Origin: Thermocoleostomius sinensis A174
GTDB taxonomy: Bacteria; Cyanobacteriota; Cyanobacteriia; Elainellales; Elainellaceae
Assembly (NCBI RefSeq): GCF_026802175.1
Contig: NZ_CP113797.1
Span: 5,495,026-5,559,025, forward strand
Reading direction: 5' to 3'
Length of the DNA stretch: 64,000 bases
The notes beneath the pieces were generated by a model. That model did not search any database and was not told where the DNA came from. It worked only from the letters and a program-made list of their open reading frames with translations. Numbering within the stretch: position 1 is the stretch's first letter; each line of letters opens with the position of its first letter. Positions 3,519 to 37,248 of the stretch are shown here, in pieces. The position numbers were made by a program, and so were the translations under genes.

Positions 3519-3554
3519 GTTTTTCCAGGTTACTAGTGATGAGATGGCGTAGCC

Positions 3555-4502
3555 CTACACTGCATCCACCATCATCTGAGCCACTTCCCGCATCCTATAC
3601 TTGGCTTGCCAACCCAGTTTTGCTTTCGCTTTTGCCGCATTGCCCCGACTCACAGCAATATCTGTGGGTCGAAATAAACTGCAATCCACTTCGATATGCT
3701 CTCGCCAATTTAACCCCAAGTAGCTAAACACCTCTGCCACAAACTCCTCCAGCGTATGCGACGAGCCAGTGGCAATCACATAATCATCGGGGTGATCTTG
3801 TTGCAGCATCAAATACATGGCTTCCACATATTCCGGCGACCAGCCCCAATCGCGCTGAATCGAAATATTGCCCAAACAGAGTTTGTTGGTTTTACCCGCC
3901 GCAATTTCATGGGCACAAGCCACAATTTTTTGAGTCACAAACCGCTGGGGCCGCAGTGGCGATTCGTGGTTAAATAAAATGCCAGAACAGGTAAAGAGAT
4001 CGTAAGCTTCACGGTAGTTGGCCACTTGCCAAAAAGCGGCTGCCTTAGCCACCGCATAGGGACTGCGAGGGCGAAATGGAGTTTCTTCGTCGGCTGCATC
4101 AGTCCCCGTATCGCCAAAACATTCACTGGAACCGGCATTGTAGAGTTTGATCGGGTTTCCAATAAAGCGAATCGCTTCTAAGAGATTCAGCGTTCCCAGG
4201 GTAATGCTTTCCATTGTTTCTACGGGTAGCTCGAAGGAAAGCCCCACCGAGGTTTGCCCCGCAAGATTATAAATTTCATCCGGCTGAATTTTTTTGATGA
4301 CCTGAAGCACGCTGCGGAAGTCATTCAGAGCCATGGAGCAGGTTTTAATCCGATCGCGGATACCCAACCGCACCAAATTGCGGAACGTAGACATCTGGGC
4401 ATCTCGTGAAGTGCCATAGACGCAGTACCCCTGGTTGAGTAACAGTTGCGCTAGATAAGCACCATCTTGTCCAGAAATGCCACAAATCAGGGCTGTTTTC
4501 AT
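3555..4502 (-). CDS. gmd: GDP-mannose 4,6-dehydratase
   Basis: A 315-residue extended SDR enzyme that converts GDP-D-mannose to GDP-4-dehydro-6-deoxy-mannose, the first step to GDP-fucose/rhamnose for surface polysaccharides. The Rossmann NADP motif GISGQDGAYLA is at residues 8-18. The SSE motif (YNAGSSECFG) and the catalytic YAVAK (near residue 150) are intact, and RPTDIAVSRGNAAKAK is the usual C-terminal signature. It is slightly shorter than the 325-370 residues common in the family, with the shortening at the C-terminus. No fucose synthase neighbour is present here; the other sugar genes in the window are dispersed. The ATG at 4502 is the natural start. Confidence 0.93.
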   Translation of the reverse strand: MKTALICGISGQDGAYLAQLLLNQGYCVYGTSRDAQMSTFRNLVRLGIRDRIKTCSMALNDFRSVLQVIKKIQPDEIYNLAGQTSVGLSFELPVETMESITLGTLNLLEAIRFIGNPIKLYNAGSSECFGDTGTDAADEETPFRPRSPYAVAKAAAFWQVANYREAYDLFTCSGILFNHESPLRPQRFVTQKIVACAHEIAAGKTNKLCLGNISIQRDWGWSPEYVEAMYLMLQQDHPDDYVIATGSSHTLEEFVAEVFSYLGLNWREHIEVDCSLFRPTDIAVSRGNAAKAKAKLGWQAKYRMREVAQMMVDAV

Positions 4503-4531
4503 CGCTTAAATCGGGGGTAGACATGAAGAAT

Positions 4532-4567
4532 CAGAAGGGTAGACTCAGTTCGCCTTCAGCCCTTCTG
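4532..4567. terminator. Hairpin between the small membrane gene and gmd
   Basis: CAGAAGGG (4532-4539) and CCCTTCTG (4560-4567) form an 8-bp stem with a 20-base loop. It lies just downstream of the minus-strand gene ending at 4574 and 30 bases upstream of the gmd start, so it could end the upstream transcript or shape the gmd leader. There is no T-run on the minus strand. Confidence 0.35.
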
Positions 4568-4573
4568 TTCCTA

Positions 4574-4954
4574 TCATTCCCCTAGGTTCGGCTCTTCACT
4601 CAGCGGCTGAGCTTTCTCGATCGTAAACGAGATCGATCGCGGTGCTGGTGAAGTAAAGTTAGGCAATTGCACCCCCGGATAGTGGCGTGGCGGTGCGACT
4701 GTTGGCGGCGGAAAAGCGGGATGCGCAGAGGGTTGATCGATCGCTGGGGTCGATTTGGGTGGAGCAGCGGGTGGCATAGCCTGCCATTGGGTTTGTTTGG
4801 GCAAAACCTTGTTGGCGTTAGACGCCACCGCTAGCAGTGCTCCAGTGATCACAAACACAGGCATGGGCAATGTTACCCCTTGCAGCCATTGGTAAAGTTC
4901 TGCCGCTCCAAAGAAGGCCAAACAACACACGATCCACACTTGCATCAGTTTCAT
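4574..4954 (-). CDS. Small hypothetical membrane protein with proline-rich tail
   Basis: A 126-residue protein of no recognised family. Residues 4-20 and 28-48 are hydrophobic and could form two membrane spans separated by a short WLQG turn. Residues about 60-115 are rich in Pro and Ala (PPAAPPKS, PPPTVAPPRHYPG), typical of a flexible tail. The ATG start at 4954 gives the hydrophobic N-terminus directly. It lies upstream of gmd on the same strand, 71 bases away, and may be cotranscribed with it unless the intervening hairpin terminates. Function unknown. Confidence 0.65.
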   Translation of the reverse strand: MKLMQVWIVCCLAFFGAAELYQWLQGVTLPMPVFVITGALLAVASNANKVLPKQTQWQAMPPAAPPKSTPAIDQPSAHPAFPPPTVAPPRHYPGVQLPNFTSPAPRSISFTIEKAQPLSEEPNLGE

Positions 4955-32285: not shown

Positions 32286-33119
32286 ATGGCATCCTTTCCA
32301 AGCATTTTTGTATCTCACGGTGCGCCTGACCTATTGCTAACCGCAAGCCCAGCGCTGGAATTTTTTCAGCAATTGGGAGCGCAATTGGGTCAACCAAAGG
32401 CAATTTTGGTGATCTCGGCTCACTGGACAACGCCTCTACCGACGGTGAGTTTGGCGACGCAGCCTGAAACGATTCATGATTTCTGGGGATTCCCAGCTCC
32501 GTTGTACGAGCTAACCTATCCTGCCCCCGGTGCGCCTGAGTTGGCTGATCGGGTAAGCAAACAGTTAATCGAAGCGGGGATGAGCTGTGAACTGGCGGCC
32601 GATCGCGGCTTAGATCATGGCGCATGGGAACCGCTGATGGCAATGTATCCAGATGCCAAAATTCCTGTGACGCAACTTTCGGTGCAGCCGCATCTGGGCC
32701 CAGCCCATCATGTGCAAATGGGACGAGCACTGGCAGCACTGCGGCAAGAGGGGGTATTGGTATTAGCCAGCGGAGCCATCACGCATAATCTAAGCAAATT
32801 TCGGGGTCATGCCTTTGATGCCCAACCGCCAACTTGGGTGACGCAGTTTGATGATTGGCTGACAGAGATCATTACGGCATCTGAACTTACGGCGTCTAGT
32901 CTCGATCGCCTGTTGGAGTATCGTCGTTTAGCCCCCTACGCGGTCGAGAACCATCCTACGGAAGAACATTTTCTGCCGTTGTTTGTGGCGATCGGGGCAG
33001 GCGGTCTAAAACCACAAGGTCAACGCCTACACTCCAGTTTCACCTATGGCATTCTCAGCATGGCGGCCTATGCGTTTAATGAGGCAATGACAATCCCTGT
33101 AGTTTTTAAAACAAAATAG
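32286..33119 (+). CDS. Class III extradiol dioxygenase, LigB / 4,5-DOPA dioxygenase-like
   Basis: A 277-residue cytosolic iron enzyme of the LigB/YgiD/DODA family, which cleaves catechol rings. Key pieces: FVSHGAPDLL (metal His), VISAHWTTPLPTV (second His), DHGAWEPLMAMYPDA (third, catalytic) and LASGAITHNL near residue 165. The length matches the family (about 260-280). The true substrate in cyanobacteria is unknown. The ATG at 32286 has AGGAG at 32275-32279. Confidence 0.9.
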   Translation: MASFPSIFVSHGAPDLLLTASPALEFFQQLGAQLGQPKAILVISAHWTTPLPTVSLATQPETIHDFWGFPAPLYELTYPAPGAPELADRVSKQLIEAGMSCELAADRGLDHGAWEPLMAMYPDAKIPVTQLSVQPHLGPAHHVQMGRALAALRQEGVLVLASGAITHNLSKFRGHAFDAQPPTWVTQFDDWLTEIITASELTASSLDRLLEYRRLAPYAVENHPTEEHFLPLFVAIGAGGLKPQGQRLHSSFTYGILSMAAYAFNEAMTIPVVFKTK

Positions 33120-33232
33120 AAAAATTTACACTCTTGTTAAGTAATGTCGAGAAGCTGGTACAAAGACTTGGATTTTGTCAAGGTGTGCTCATATTTTAGA
33201 CATCAGTACACATTAAGTTGAATAGAGCCAAT

Positions 33233-33670
33233 ATGGGTCTTACCGAGAAAATTAGCGATCAACACACACAAGCAACGGTGGCGGCAGATTGTGCCAAGTT
33301 GATAGACGAGCAGGTGGCAGCTAAAAATGGCATTTCCGGCTTGGCGCTGAAAGCAGCCTATGGTGTTGTTAAAGGAGTTGAGCCTAGCTACATTCCAGGG
33401 GCCATTCAACGGCTATTACCAGATGCTCTTGTGGCGCTTGATCCACTGTGGAATGAGGGGGTTCAATCGGGCGATCCTGTCCAACACTTGATCCAAAATC
33501 GATCGCGCACAGCAGAAACCTTGCTGAGCATTACCGATGCCAAAATTAGCAAAACCAAAAATGGCGTCGTACGTTCGTCCTACAACAAGCTGCGTAAGTC
33601 CGTAAAGAATGATGTGGAAGAGGCAGTTCCAGGCTTAGCTAAAATCTTGGCAACCCATGCCCAAGCTTAG
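33233..33670 (+). CDS. Conserved hypothetical protein (DUF6918-like)
   Basis: A 145-residue soluble protein; no function is known to me. The start is the ATG at 33233 (MGLTEKISDQHT), not the upstream TTG at 33218. The pattern DCAKLIDEQVAAKNGISGLALKAAY, GVEPSYIPGAI, LLPDALVALDPLWNEG and a basic helix SSYNKLRKSVKNDVEEAVPG resembles a family I recall as DUF6918, but this is from memory. It lies between the dioxygenase and glpK, 112 bases before glpK, on the same strand. Confidence 0.75.
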   Translation: MGLTEKISDQHTQATVAADCAKLIDEQVAAKNGISGLALKAAYGVVKGVEPSYIPGAIQRLLPDALVALDPLWNEGVQSGDPVQHLIQNRSRTAETLLSITDAKISKTKNGVVRSSYNKLRKSVKNDVEEAVPGLAKILATHAQA

Positions 33671-35302: not shown

Positions 35303-35346
35303 TTGACAGTCTTGACAAGCGCCAATTATATGTATATACATATTTT
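35303..35346 (+). promoter_or_regulatory. MarR promoter with perfect operator palindrome
   Basis: A 16-bp perfect palindrome (ATATGTATATACATAT) lies at 35328-35343, ending 3 bases before the MarR ATG. TTGACA occurs at 35303-35308 and at 35312-35317. Each has a plausible -10 exactly 17 bases on (TTATAT at 35326 or TATACA at 35335), and both of these fall in the palindrome. A bound dimer would block the promoter, so autorepression is expected. Confidence 0.75.
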
Positions 35347-35808
35347 ATGAACGATCGACCCTTTGAGCCAAATTTTGCAGTGCTGAATCAGGTTCCCACG
35401 GTCTGCATGGGAATGCATATTCGTCGGGCTTCCCGGATCATCACGCAGGTGTACGATGCTGCATTGTATCCAGCAGGATTGGCATTGAACCAATTTACGC
35501 TGCTTGTATCCATCTACTTAGCAGAATTCATTACCATTACTCGCTTGGCTCAGGAGTTATTCACTGACCAAACTACCCTGACTCGCAATCTCAAAGTCTT
35601 GGAAAAACGGGGCTGGGTGGCGATCGAACCGGGAGACGATCGGCGGGTGCGGTTGGTGTCTTTGACGGCAGAAGGGCGAACCGTCCTGGCGCAAGCCTTG
35701 CCGCTTTGGCAACAAGCTCAAACCGAAGTCATGCAGCATTTTGCCTCAGAGCAATGGCAAACGTTGCTATCACTGTTGTCTGAGGTGAGGGCGATGAAAG
35801 GCGATTAA
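35347..35808 (+). CDS. MarR-family transcriptional regulator
   Basis: A 153-residue winged-helix regulator. The ATG at 35347 (MNDRPFEPNF) is chosen because the 39 codons upstream overlap glpK and the promoter. The domain shows the usual order: an N-terminal dimer helix (CMGMHIRRASRIITQVYDA), FTLLVSIYLAEF, the recognition region TLTRNLKVLEKRGWVAI and the wing EPGDDRRVRLVSLT. Cys20, in PTVCMG, could be redox sensitive (inference). The palindrome around its promoter recurs before the next gene at 35880-35891, so this protein very probably controls both itself and the downstream 4Fe-4S/SCP2 gene. Confidence 0.92.
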   Translation: MNDRPFEPNFAVLNQVPTVCMGMHIRRASRIITQVYDAALYPAGLALNQFTLLVSIYLAEFITITRLAQELFTDQTTLTRNLKVLEKRGWVAIEPGDDRRVRLVSLTAEGRTVLAQALPLWQQAQTEVMQHFASEQWQTLLSLLSEVRAMKGD

Positions 35809-35879
35809 AAGAGATTAGCCGTCAAATGGGCTCAAAGTTTTAGTCTCTAGCCTTTCTCTCGTCTTTACTTAGGAAAAAC

Positions 35880-35891
35880 ATGTATATACAT
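35880..35891. promoter_or_regulatory. Second MarR operator before the 4Fe-4S/SCP2 gene
   Basis: A 12-bp perfect palindrome (ATGTATATACAT), identical to the core of the 16-bp palindrome at the MarR promoter, lies 16 bases before the ATG at 35908. Two copies of the same core in a 0.6 kb stretch are unlikely by chance. Confidence 0.75.
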
Positions 35892-35907
35892 AAAAATAGA
35901 GGTGAAC

Positions 35908-37248
35908 ATGGCAAAGTTCGATACCCATCCTACTGTGCAGTGGTGGCGGCAACAGGCGGTAGTCCAATCCTCGGTAAGGCCAGCAAGCTTGAATGCGGAG
36001 TCGTTGCGATCGCTGTGCCTGGAAGCTGGGGCAGATGATGTGGGGTTTGTGGAAATTGCCCGTCCGGCCGTTGAGGATCAGCGATCGGAGATTTTGGCGG
36101 CGTTTCCGTCTACCAAAACGCTGGTTAGCTTTGTCTGTCGCATGAATCGAGAAAATATTCGCACGCCGGCTCGCTCTGCCACGAATGTTGAATTTCATGC
36201 TAGCTACGATCACACGAATGAGGTAGCCCGCCGCATTGCCAAAACCTTGGAACAAGTCGGCATTCGGGCAATGGTTCCGGGGGCAAGTTTTCCGATGGAA
36301 ATGGATCAGTTTCCGGGGAAGGTGTGGGTGGTGTCGCATAAACCGATCGCCGTTGCCGCGGGATTAGGCCATATGGGCATTCATCGGTTGGTGATTCATC
36401 CCAAGTTTGGCAATTTCATTTCGCTAGGAACGGTGCTGCTGGATGCTGAGGTCACAAGCTACACTTATCCGATCGATTACAATCCTTGCTTGGAGTGCAA
36501 ACTTTGTGTGGCGGCCTGTCCGGTGGGGGCGATCGGTGCAGATGGTCACTTCAATTTCTCTGCCTGTTACACCCACAACTATCGAGAGTTTATGAGCGGA
36601 TTCACCGACTGGGTAGGAACAATCGCTGACAGTAAAAGCGCTCGCGATTATCGTCAAAAGGTCAGTGATGCCGAATCGGCGTCGATGTGGCAAAGCTTGT
36701 CGTTCAAGGCAAACTACAAAGCCGCCTACTGCATGGCCGCCTGCCCCGCCGGAGAAGACGTGATTGCGCCGTTTTTAACCGATCGCAAAGCCTTTGTGCA
36801 AGCGGTCGTTAAACCTTTGCAAGACAAACCCGAAACCATCTATGTAGTGCCTGGCTCGGATGCAGAAACCTATGTGGCGCGACGCTTCCCGCATAAAACA
36901 GTGAAACGAGTCAGCAGCGGCATTCGTCCCAAATCCATTCAAGGATTTTTGTTTGGATTACCCTTACTGTTTCAGCGAGAACAGGCAGAGGGCTTGAATG
37001 CGGTGTACCATTTCACCTTCACCGGAGCGGAAGCCCGCCGCGCCACTGTCATCATTCGAGACAAAACGGTGCAGGTGCAAACCGAGCATGTAGGGAGAGC
37101 CAATCTATTGGTGACAGCCGACAGCAAAACTTGGTTGCGGTTTCTTGCCAAAGAATACAATCTGCTCTGGGCACTGTTGCAAGGCAAAATTCGACTCAGT
37201 GGCTCACCGAAGTTGCTTCTGGCGTTTGGCAAGTGTTTTCCTGCTTGA
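35908..37248 (+). CDS. 2[4Fe-4S] reductive-dehalogenase-like protein fused to SCP2 domain
   Basis: A 446-residue fusion. Residues about 1-190 resemble the N-terminal part of QueG/reductive-dehalogenase-like proteins (LCLEAGADDVGFVEIARP, KTLVSFVCRMN, VSHKPIAVAAGLGHMGIHR, HPKFGNFISLGTVLL). Cluster ligands: C194-x2-C197-x2-C200-x3-C204-P, then C220, and C275-x3-C279-P, enough for two cubane clusters. Residues about 350-446 match an SCP2-type lipid-binding domain (VYHFTFTGAEARRATVII, KTWLRFLAKEYNLLWALLQG, KIRLSGSPKLLLAFGKCFP). The likely role is an electron-transfer or reductive reaction on a hydrophobic substrate; the substrate is unknown. ATG at 35908 has AGAGG at 35898-35902; GTG at 35902 is an alternative. 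It is regulated by the upstream MarR protein (inferred). Confidence 0.88.
   Translation: MAKFDTHPTVQWWRQQAVVQSSVRPASLNAESLRSLCLEAGADDVGFVEIARPAVEDQRSEILAAFPSTKTLVSFVCRMNRENIRTPARSATNVEFHASYDHTNEVARRIAKTLEQVGIRAMVPGASFPMEMDQFPGKVWVVSHKPIAVAAGLGHMGIHRLVIHPKFGNFISLGTVLLDAEVTSYTYPIDYNPCLECKLCVAACPVGAIGADGHFNFSACYTHNYREFMSGFTDWVGTIADSKSARDYRQKVSDAESASMWQSLSFKANYKAAYCMAACPAGEDVIAPFLTDRKAFVQAVVKPLQDKPETIYVVPGSDAETYVARRFPHKTVKRVSSGIRPKSIQGFLFGLPLLFQREQAEGLNAVYHFTFTGAEARRATVIIRDKTVQVQTEHVGRANLLVTADSKTWLRFLAKEYNLLWALLQGKIRLSGSPKLLLAFGKCFPA

Follow-up and report, generated by a model that had tools for sequence, protein, structure and literature searches.

What do a MarR-family repressor and the unusual iron-sulfur enzyme encoded next to it accomplish together in the cyanobacterium Thermocoleostomius sinensis A174? 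We examined this question in a stretch of 64,000 nucleotides (contig NZ_CP113797.1, positions 5,495,026 to 5,559,025; hereafter the window). A preliminary description of this DNA had proposed that matching palindromes serve as operators for both genes, and that the two genes constitute a one-regulator, one-enzyme system for sensing and reducing a hydrophobic compound. The analysis reported here makes it probable that the pair is an inducible reduction cassette in which MarR controls a class-III-like reductase acting on a hydrophobic compound.

Layout of the Locus

The features of the locus are collected in Table 1. We placed the start of the enzyme gene at the ATG at 35908 rather than at an upstream GTG because the ATG fits the family alignment. 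Domain searches place a gene for an FGGY-family kinase (most likely glycerol kinase) upstream of the MarR gene and a glycosyltransferase gene downstream of the fusion reductase gene; neither is obviously related to the MarR/enzyme pair. Shortly upstream of the pair, the window also encodes a LigB-type aromatic-ring dioxygenase family protein (32286-33119) and a DUF6918 protein (33218-33670). No Rfam RNA element matched at either promoter. Scans of the locus for intrinsic terminators and generic promoters performed no better than on shuffled sequence, and the generic promoter scan missed the TTGACA/TATACA promoter of the MarR gene.

Table 1. Features of the MarR/enzyme locus, numbered from the first letter of the window
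Feature	Position	Strand	Remarks
Second TTGACA ahead of MarR gene	35303-35308		from the sequence
MarR gene promoter	35312..35340	+	TTGACA 35312-35317, 17 nt, -10-like TATACA 35335-35340 inside operator O1
Operator O1 (predicted), ATATGTATATACATAT	35328..35343	no strand	over -10 region, ends 3 nt before MarR ATG
MarR-family repressor gene	35347..35808	+	153 aa
Operator O2 (predicted), ATGTATATACAT	35880..35891	no strand	in output-gene promoter, 16 nt before enzyme ATG
Fusion reductase gene	35908..37248	+	446 aa
Fusion reductase domains			QueG/reductive-dehalogenase-like core ~residues 28-310; SCP2 ~345-446
Iron-sulfur cysteines C194, C197, C200, C204, C220, C275, C279	36487..36744	+	from invariant columns, diverged relatives and QueG profile-profile alignment
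SCP2-type hydrophobic-ligand domain	36976..37245	+	PF02036; invariant C443-F444 near C-terminus

Operators Shared by MarR and the Enzyme

The sequence confirmed the preliminary description with respect to the palindromes themselves: O1 is a perfect 16-bp palindrome at the -10 region of the MarR gene, and its 12-bp core recurs as O2 ahead of the enzyme gene. Two matches with up to two mismatches are not unusual within 64 kb, which makes statistics on the window weak. Since palindrome counts from the window are uninformative, we used whole-genome and cross-locus counts instead. The exact 12-mer ATGTATATACAT occurs twice in the whole 5.81-Mb genome, both times at the MarR/enzyme promoters, and a reversed control pattern does not occur in this genome. 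Allowing one mismatch adds two genomic places for the 12-mer, as compared to three for the control. The looser core TGYATATRCA has six further genomic matches (G000:C1 518582, 623115, 715982, 2099988, 2711913 and 5332566).

For a wider comparison we retrieved 80 loci that carry a relative of the enzyme gene; with the window added, the set comprises 81 loci (786 kb). Of the 80 retrieved loci, 55 contain a homologous MarR gene, mostly immediately upstream of the enzyme gene. TGYATATRCA was observed 94 times in the 81 loci, an approximately 65-fold enrichment over the ~1.4 occurrences expected from a first-order Markov model. Most of these sites (88 of 94) flank MarR, with 38 located within 60 bp upstream and 50 just behind the gene; two of the six sites found elsewhere directly precede a PEMT-type methyltransferase gene. 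A core site lies no more than 60 bp from the enzyme gene in 39 of the 56 loci with a MarR homologue, but in only one of the 25 loci without (Fisher p=1.7e-8, an indicative value since related sequences are non-independent). This operator pattern was seen in Cyanobacteria, Acidobacteria, Nitrospirota, Planctomycetota, Chloroflexota and Alphaproteobacteria. We also asked whether relatives with the MarR/enzyme pair have lost the palindromes, the outcome named as refuting in the preliminary description. The palindromes are conserved, so the reading as shared MarR operators survived, strongly supported by conservation, position and dependence on MarR. Based on the uniqueness of the 12-mer, the enrichment of the 94 sites around MarR, and the contrast between loci with and without a MarR homologue, we conclude that MarR very probably represses its own gene and the output gene. 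As a computational prediction this regulatory claim is solid.

An alignment of relatives' sites revealed a TTGACA hexamer 12-13 nt ahead of the MarR-side core, conserved in nearly all of 36 sites. In nearly all relatives a TATACA -10 hexamer follows 16-17 nt after TTGACA, inside the MarR operator. At the output-side site, about seven consecutive Ts occupy the -35 position. The natural reading is that MarR would block RNA polymerase at these promoters. The overlap of the operator with the -10 hexamer could also suggest that the palindromes are AT-rich -10 elements, palindromic by accident, and not MarR operators. This explanation is very improbable because the exact 12-mer is found nowhere else in the genome, both half-sites are conserved, and the site is largely confined to loci with MarR. 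Moreover, in loci with an insertion or other genes between MarR and the enzyme (L013, L015, L017, L047), the second site remains behind MarR and does not follow the enzyme. In L013 a 453-aa ORF on the minus strand (3537-4895), transposase-like by eye, lies between a MarR reading frame with its second operator and the enzyme, which is thereby left without an operator.

Other Outputs and Other Regulators

T. sinensis A174 contains two exact sites and one copy of the enzyme, and for this genome the idea of one regulator serving one enzyme holds. For the relatives it is too narrow: the unit of MarR and twin operators also precedes NmrA-like, SDR, methyltransferase, GST or membrane-protein genes. 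In cyanobacteria, the gene behind MarR and its twin sites can also encode an NmrA-like protein, an SDR or a membrane protein of ~200 aa. The latter contains the motif LHLNYLTLFHLWRIPAALVFFYYGSQHLLP, has no Pfam match and is found behind MarR with twin operators in the MarR loci L132-L146 (in L132 its gene spans 514-1113 bases after the MarR start); it may represent an unnamed family driven by the MarR switch. The surroundings of the enzyme gene in relatives include NmrA, GST, PEMT/ICMT methyltransferase, SnoaL, SDR and alpha/beta-hydrolase genes. In L020 and L021 the intervening genes resemble, by eye, an ABC exporter.

Enzyme genes without MarR stand beside genes for TetR (L023, L046, L084) or PadR (L028, L048) and, in Actinobacteria, beside HxlR, often together with AGTTGCTTCATGAAACT repeats and an alpha/beta-hydrolase gene. 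In Streptomyces and Lentzea, one to two exact copies of AGTTGCTTCATGAAACT precede the enzyme gene (L074:4914-4964, L086:4908-4958, L079:4938-4954, L090:4939-4955). These repeats beside HxlR probably form a second operator system for the enzyme, unrelated to that of MarR. ORFs called on the reverse strand beside the Streptomyces loci (cluster c40) were discarded as spurious; the real neighbour is HxlR. The pairing with four repressor families of the small-molecule type (MarR, HxlR, TetR, PadR) provides the best evidence for an inducible role of the enzyme.

In the titles and abstracts of open-licence PMC papers we found no earlier description of TGTATATACA as an operator, of a cyanobacterial MarR/NmrA operator system, or of a combination of SCP2 with QueG or a dehalogenase.

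The MarR Protein

The regulator is matched by the MarR domain PF01047 (E=6e-9, 36.1 bits, cut-off 24.6), and PF12802 is also over its cut-off. The closest solved structure is Rv2887 from M. tuberculosis (4fx0: E=3e-20; profile comparison E=1.5e-35). Cys20 is invariant in all 52 aligned rows that cover this position. A CxC segment is common among MarR relatives, and the protein in the window has Gly at residue 22. The second Cys of this segment (residue 22) aligns in a profile match with a Cys of the OhrR-type structure 5hli that we take to be the sensing residue. Thiol sensing by this MarR protein is therefore possible, with the invariant Cys20 being suggestive only.

The Enzyme

Sequence comparison identifies the enzyme as a member of a real, widespread and uncharacterised family, mostly 63-84% identical between phyla (family alignment A1: 64 sequences, mean column identity 73%). 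The C-terminus is matched by the SCP2 model PF02036 (E=1.2e-7, 32.5 bits, cut-off 21.3), and this domain is present in 60 of the 64 aligned relatives. The core is matched by QueG (TIGR00276: E=1.5e-13, 50.5 bits) and by reductive dehalogenase (TIGR02486: E=6e-12, 46 bits), in both cases far under the cut-offs of 200 and 160. Comparison of the enzyme-family profile with QueG by hhalign gave 99.6% probability (E=1e-23, 299 columns). Such a QueG-like core could mean that the enzyme serves as the housekeeping tRNA epoxyqueuosine reductase of this genome and has gained a domain. We rejected this identity, the chance of which is practically nil, because a genuine QueG is encoded elsewhere in the genome (G000:C1:139684, 310 bits, over the cut-off) and the enzyme stays far under this mark.

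An AlphaFold prediction from close relatives only was poor in the cluster region (pLDDT 68.8), and the rerun included diverged members. The model from this diverse alignment reached pLDDT 93.6 and pTM 0.89. Its best Foldseek matches are reductive dehalogenases and QueG (8q4h, 4ur3, 5d6s; prob 1.00) with E ~1e-10 to 1e-7. TM-scores of the model to known structures are moderate because only ~200-250 of the 446 residues align. The earlier model matched SCP2 structures in Foldseek, and alkylsulfatases were matched in both searches. According to AlphaFold, Foldseek and hhalign, the enzyme model has the class III fold, namely a nitroreductase-like core followed by a ferredoxin-like domain. Hence, a QueG/reductive-dehalogenase-like core fused to SCP2, as first described from the letters, is supported by both sequence and fold.

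The assignment of two [4Fe-4S] clusters in the same description is not certain: the cluster cysteines occur in QueG order, but only seven of the eight canonical residues are present. Ala272 replaces the QueG residue Cys236, a cluster ligand (PMC4646009), across the whole family, including members without SCP2. A Cys still stands at this position in one diverged member (L194) and in relatives further removed from the family. QueG and dehalogenases also have an active-site Tyr in common (PMC4646009). Sequence alignments disagree on the corresponding position, which is Phe96 according to MAFFT with intermediates or Thr103 according to hhalign; neither is Tyr. All 64 aligned relatives share Cys443 (37234-37236), which lies almost at the end of the SCP2 domain and may extend to the active site or to a cluster.

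Six members of ~340 aa (L169, L170, L172, L173, L174, L206) lack SCP2 and keep the core; the Ala272 substitution is kept as well, with Ser in L170. Since such members occur in Actinobacteria and Chloroflexota, SCP2 is predicted not to be essential to the core chemistry. The architecture of the class is present, but the eighth Cys is absent and the Tyr was not found by alignment. For this reason the enzyme, as judged from sequence and model, should best be called class-III-like, and neither QueG nor a dehalogenase.

These substitutions raise the alternative that regulation works as proposed while the core has lost its corrinoid and class-III chemistry. The protein would then be a corrinoid-free iron-sulfur reductase of the electron-transfer or hydride type, or a [4Fe-4S] enzyme whose cluster is left with an open site by the missing cysteine, acting on an SCP2-held lipid. 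The family-wide loss of one cluster cysteine, the Tyr missing in alignments, and the invariance of Phe96-His97, Glu131 and Cys443 in its place point in this direction. We consider this alternative unlikely since the segment AGLGxMGxHRNVIHPKFGNF, which matches the cofactor-binding core of QueG and dehalogenases, counts among the most strongly conserved stretches of the protein, and the overall fold matches specifically class-III enzymes.

Electron Supply

The enzymes from a planctomycete (L057, Planctomycetota) and from Methylobacter (L087) continue C-terminally into an FAD/NAD/2Fe-2S reductase module. The two modules share 59% identity, and their matches are phthalate dioxygenase reductase (2pia) as well as the reductase half of self-sufficient P450s. 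L074 carries a separate gene of the phthalate-dioxygenase-reductase type next door, and L071 a ferredoxin/flavoprotein gene. Fused and adjacent modules of this kind, in the arrangement of self-sufficient dehalogenases, argue that the enzyme core would be a reductase fed from NAD(P)H. Because no reductase-module gene adjoins the enzyme in the window, cellular ferredoxin is the likely donor in this genome.

Self-sufficient catabolic reductive dehalogenases carry such a reductase module (PMC10463259), and PceA and NpRdhA are among the best fold matches. Along with the match to TIGR02486, these similarities would fit a true reductive dehalogenase for hydrophobic organohalides. With a score of 46 bits against a cut-off of 160, and with the dehalogenase Tyr absent in the alignments made, we regard this identity as distinctly improbable.

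Distribution

The enzyme is patchily distributed, being present in 26 of 291 cyanobacterial genomes, and full or SCP2-less members were found in a few of the ~350 genomes sampled from each of Actinobacteria, Proteobacteria and Chloroflexota. In the enzyme tree the sequences group largely by phylum, and families intermix within Cyanobacteria; nine changes suffice to explain the MarR linkage on this tree. The patchy distribution and the tree indicate that the enzyme is an accessory trait that was probably transferred. One contig filed as Candidatus Gracilibacteria (L018) encodes a typically cyanobacterial copy and is probably mis-binned.

Proposed Function

As a working model, we propose that a MarR dimer binds TGYATATRCA palindromes over both promoters and would thereby keep its own gene and the output gene off. 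A small hydrophobic, aromatic or electrophilic compound may free the repressor via the MarR pocket or via Cys20; the pocket route has a precedent in the relative Rv2887, which salicylate dislodges from its DNA (PMC5526998). Electrons from NAD(P)H could then pass through a flavin/2Fe-2S reductase or ferredoxin to two iron-sulfur clusters and on to the active site, which probably holds a corrinoid. There, the enzyme would reduce a hydrophobic substrate that SCP2 presents or shields. The reaction would likely serve to detoxify a xenobiotic or an endogenous lipophilic metabolite, or to process it in a first step. The NmrA, SDR, GST, methyltransferase, SnoaL and alpha/beta-hydrolase genes near the enzyme and the alternative HxlR, TetR and PadR neighbours fit a theme of inducible detoxification, and the patchy accessory distribution also speaks for the model.

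The best reading of the enzyme is therefore an inducible NAD(P)H- or ferredoxin-driven reductase, probably corrinoid, for a hydrophobic aromatic or electrophilic compound, although we infer the substrate, the inducer and corrinoid binding. The reductase fusions, together with the four repressor families that recur beside the enzyme, raise the plausibility of the idea, originally proposed for this locus, that a hydrophobic compound is sensed and reduced. More tentatively, and with some reservation, the family could be placed beside QueG and the reductive dehalogenases as a third functional branch of their class. Its members would be reductases that rely on a corrinoid or on altered iron-sulfur chemistry, differ in the active site, have a proximal cluster with an open ligand position, and receive lipophilic substrates from the fused SCP2 domain. 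Interchangeable ligand-sensing repressors (MarR, HxlR, TetR, PadR) would control this accessory cassette, which would have spread to at least six phyla.

The MarR/enzyme pairing is kept in at least six bacterial phyla, suggestive of an inducible and portable system that reduces an oily or aromatic compound. The literature cited here on the B12-dependent QueG/reductive-dehalogenase class describes two functions, queuosine maturation and dehalogenation. The chemistry of this class would be widened by a third family that is widespread and highly conserved, contains a lipid-binding domain, occurs in fusions to oxygenase-type reductases and answers to a readable switch. The operator also provides a handle on this chemistry, as compounds that free MarR from TGTATATACA should be, or resemble, the enzyme substrate. 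In addition, the MarR and twin-operator unit could serve as a compact biosensor part.

Comparison with Known Systems

Among known MarR proteins, Rv2887 is the nearest solved relative of the regulator in the window, including the N-terminal CxC segment, and is likewise a one-component repressor of a modifying enzyme, the SAM methyltransferase Rv0560c. The target enzyme is a different one, and the DNA site of Rv2887, a 27-bp region of high G+C recognized by indirect readout (PMC5526998), is unlike TGTATATACA. The redox-sensing proteins OhrR, AbfR and SarZ are related by profile matches and by the residue-22 Cys of the relatives; in contrast, the invariant Cys20 of this MarR family lies two residues earlier, and the protein in the window has no Cys at residue 22.

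The enzyme shares with QueG the core fold, the order of iron-sulfur cysteines and the GLGxxGxH segment. It differs from QueG by having seven instead of eight cysteines, by the catalytic Tyr not found by alignment, by SCP2 in the place of the C-terminal helical repeats, and by being encoded by a predicted inducible accessory gene. With the self-sufficient dehalogenases BhbA and JtRdhA (PMC10463259) it has in common the class-III-like core and, in L057 and L087, the C-terminal module of the phthalate-dioxygenase-reductase type. Unlike these dehalogenases, the family has no detected catalytic Tyr and no family-level dehalogenase score, and in the fused enzymes SCP2 sits between the core and the reductase module. 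Finally, the C-terminal domain resembles SCP2 and the lipid-binding domains at the C-terminus of alkylsulfatases, as indicated by PF02036 and by Foldseek matches to both, but here it is fused behind an iron-sulfur core and contains the invariant Cys443.
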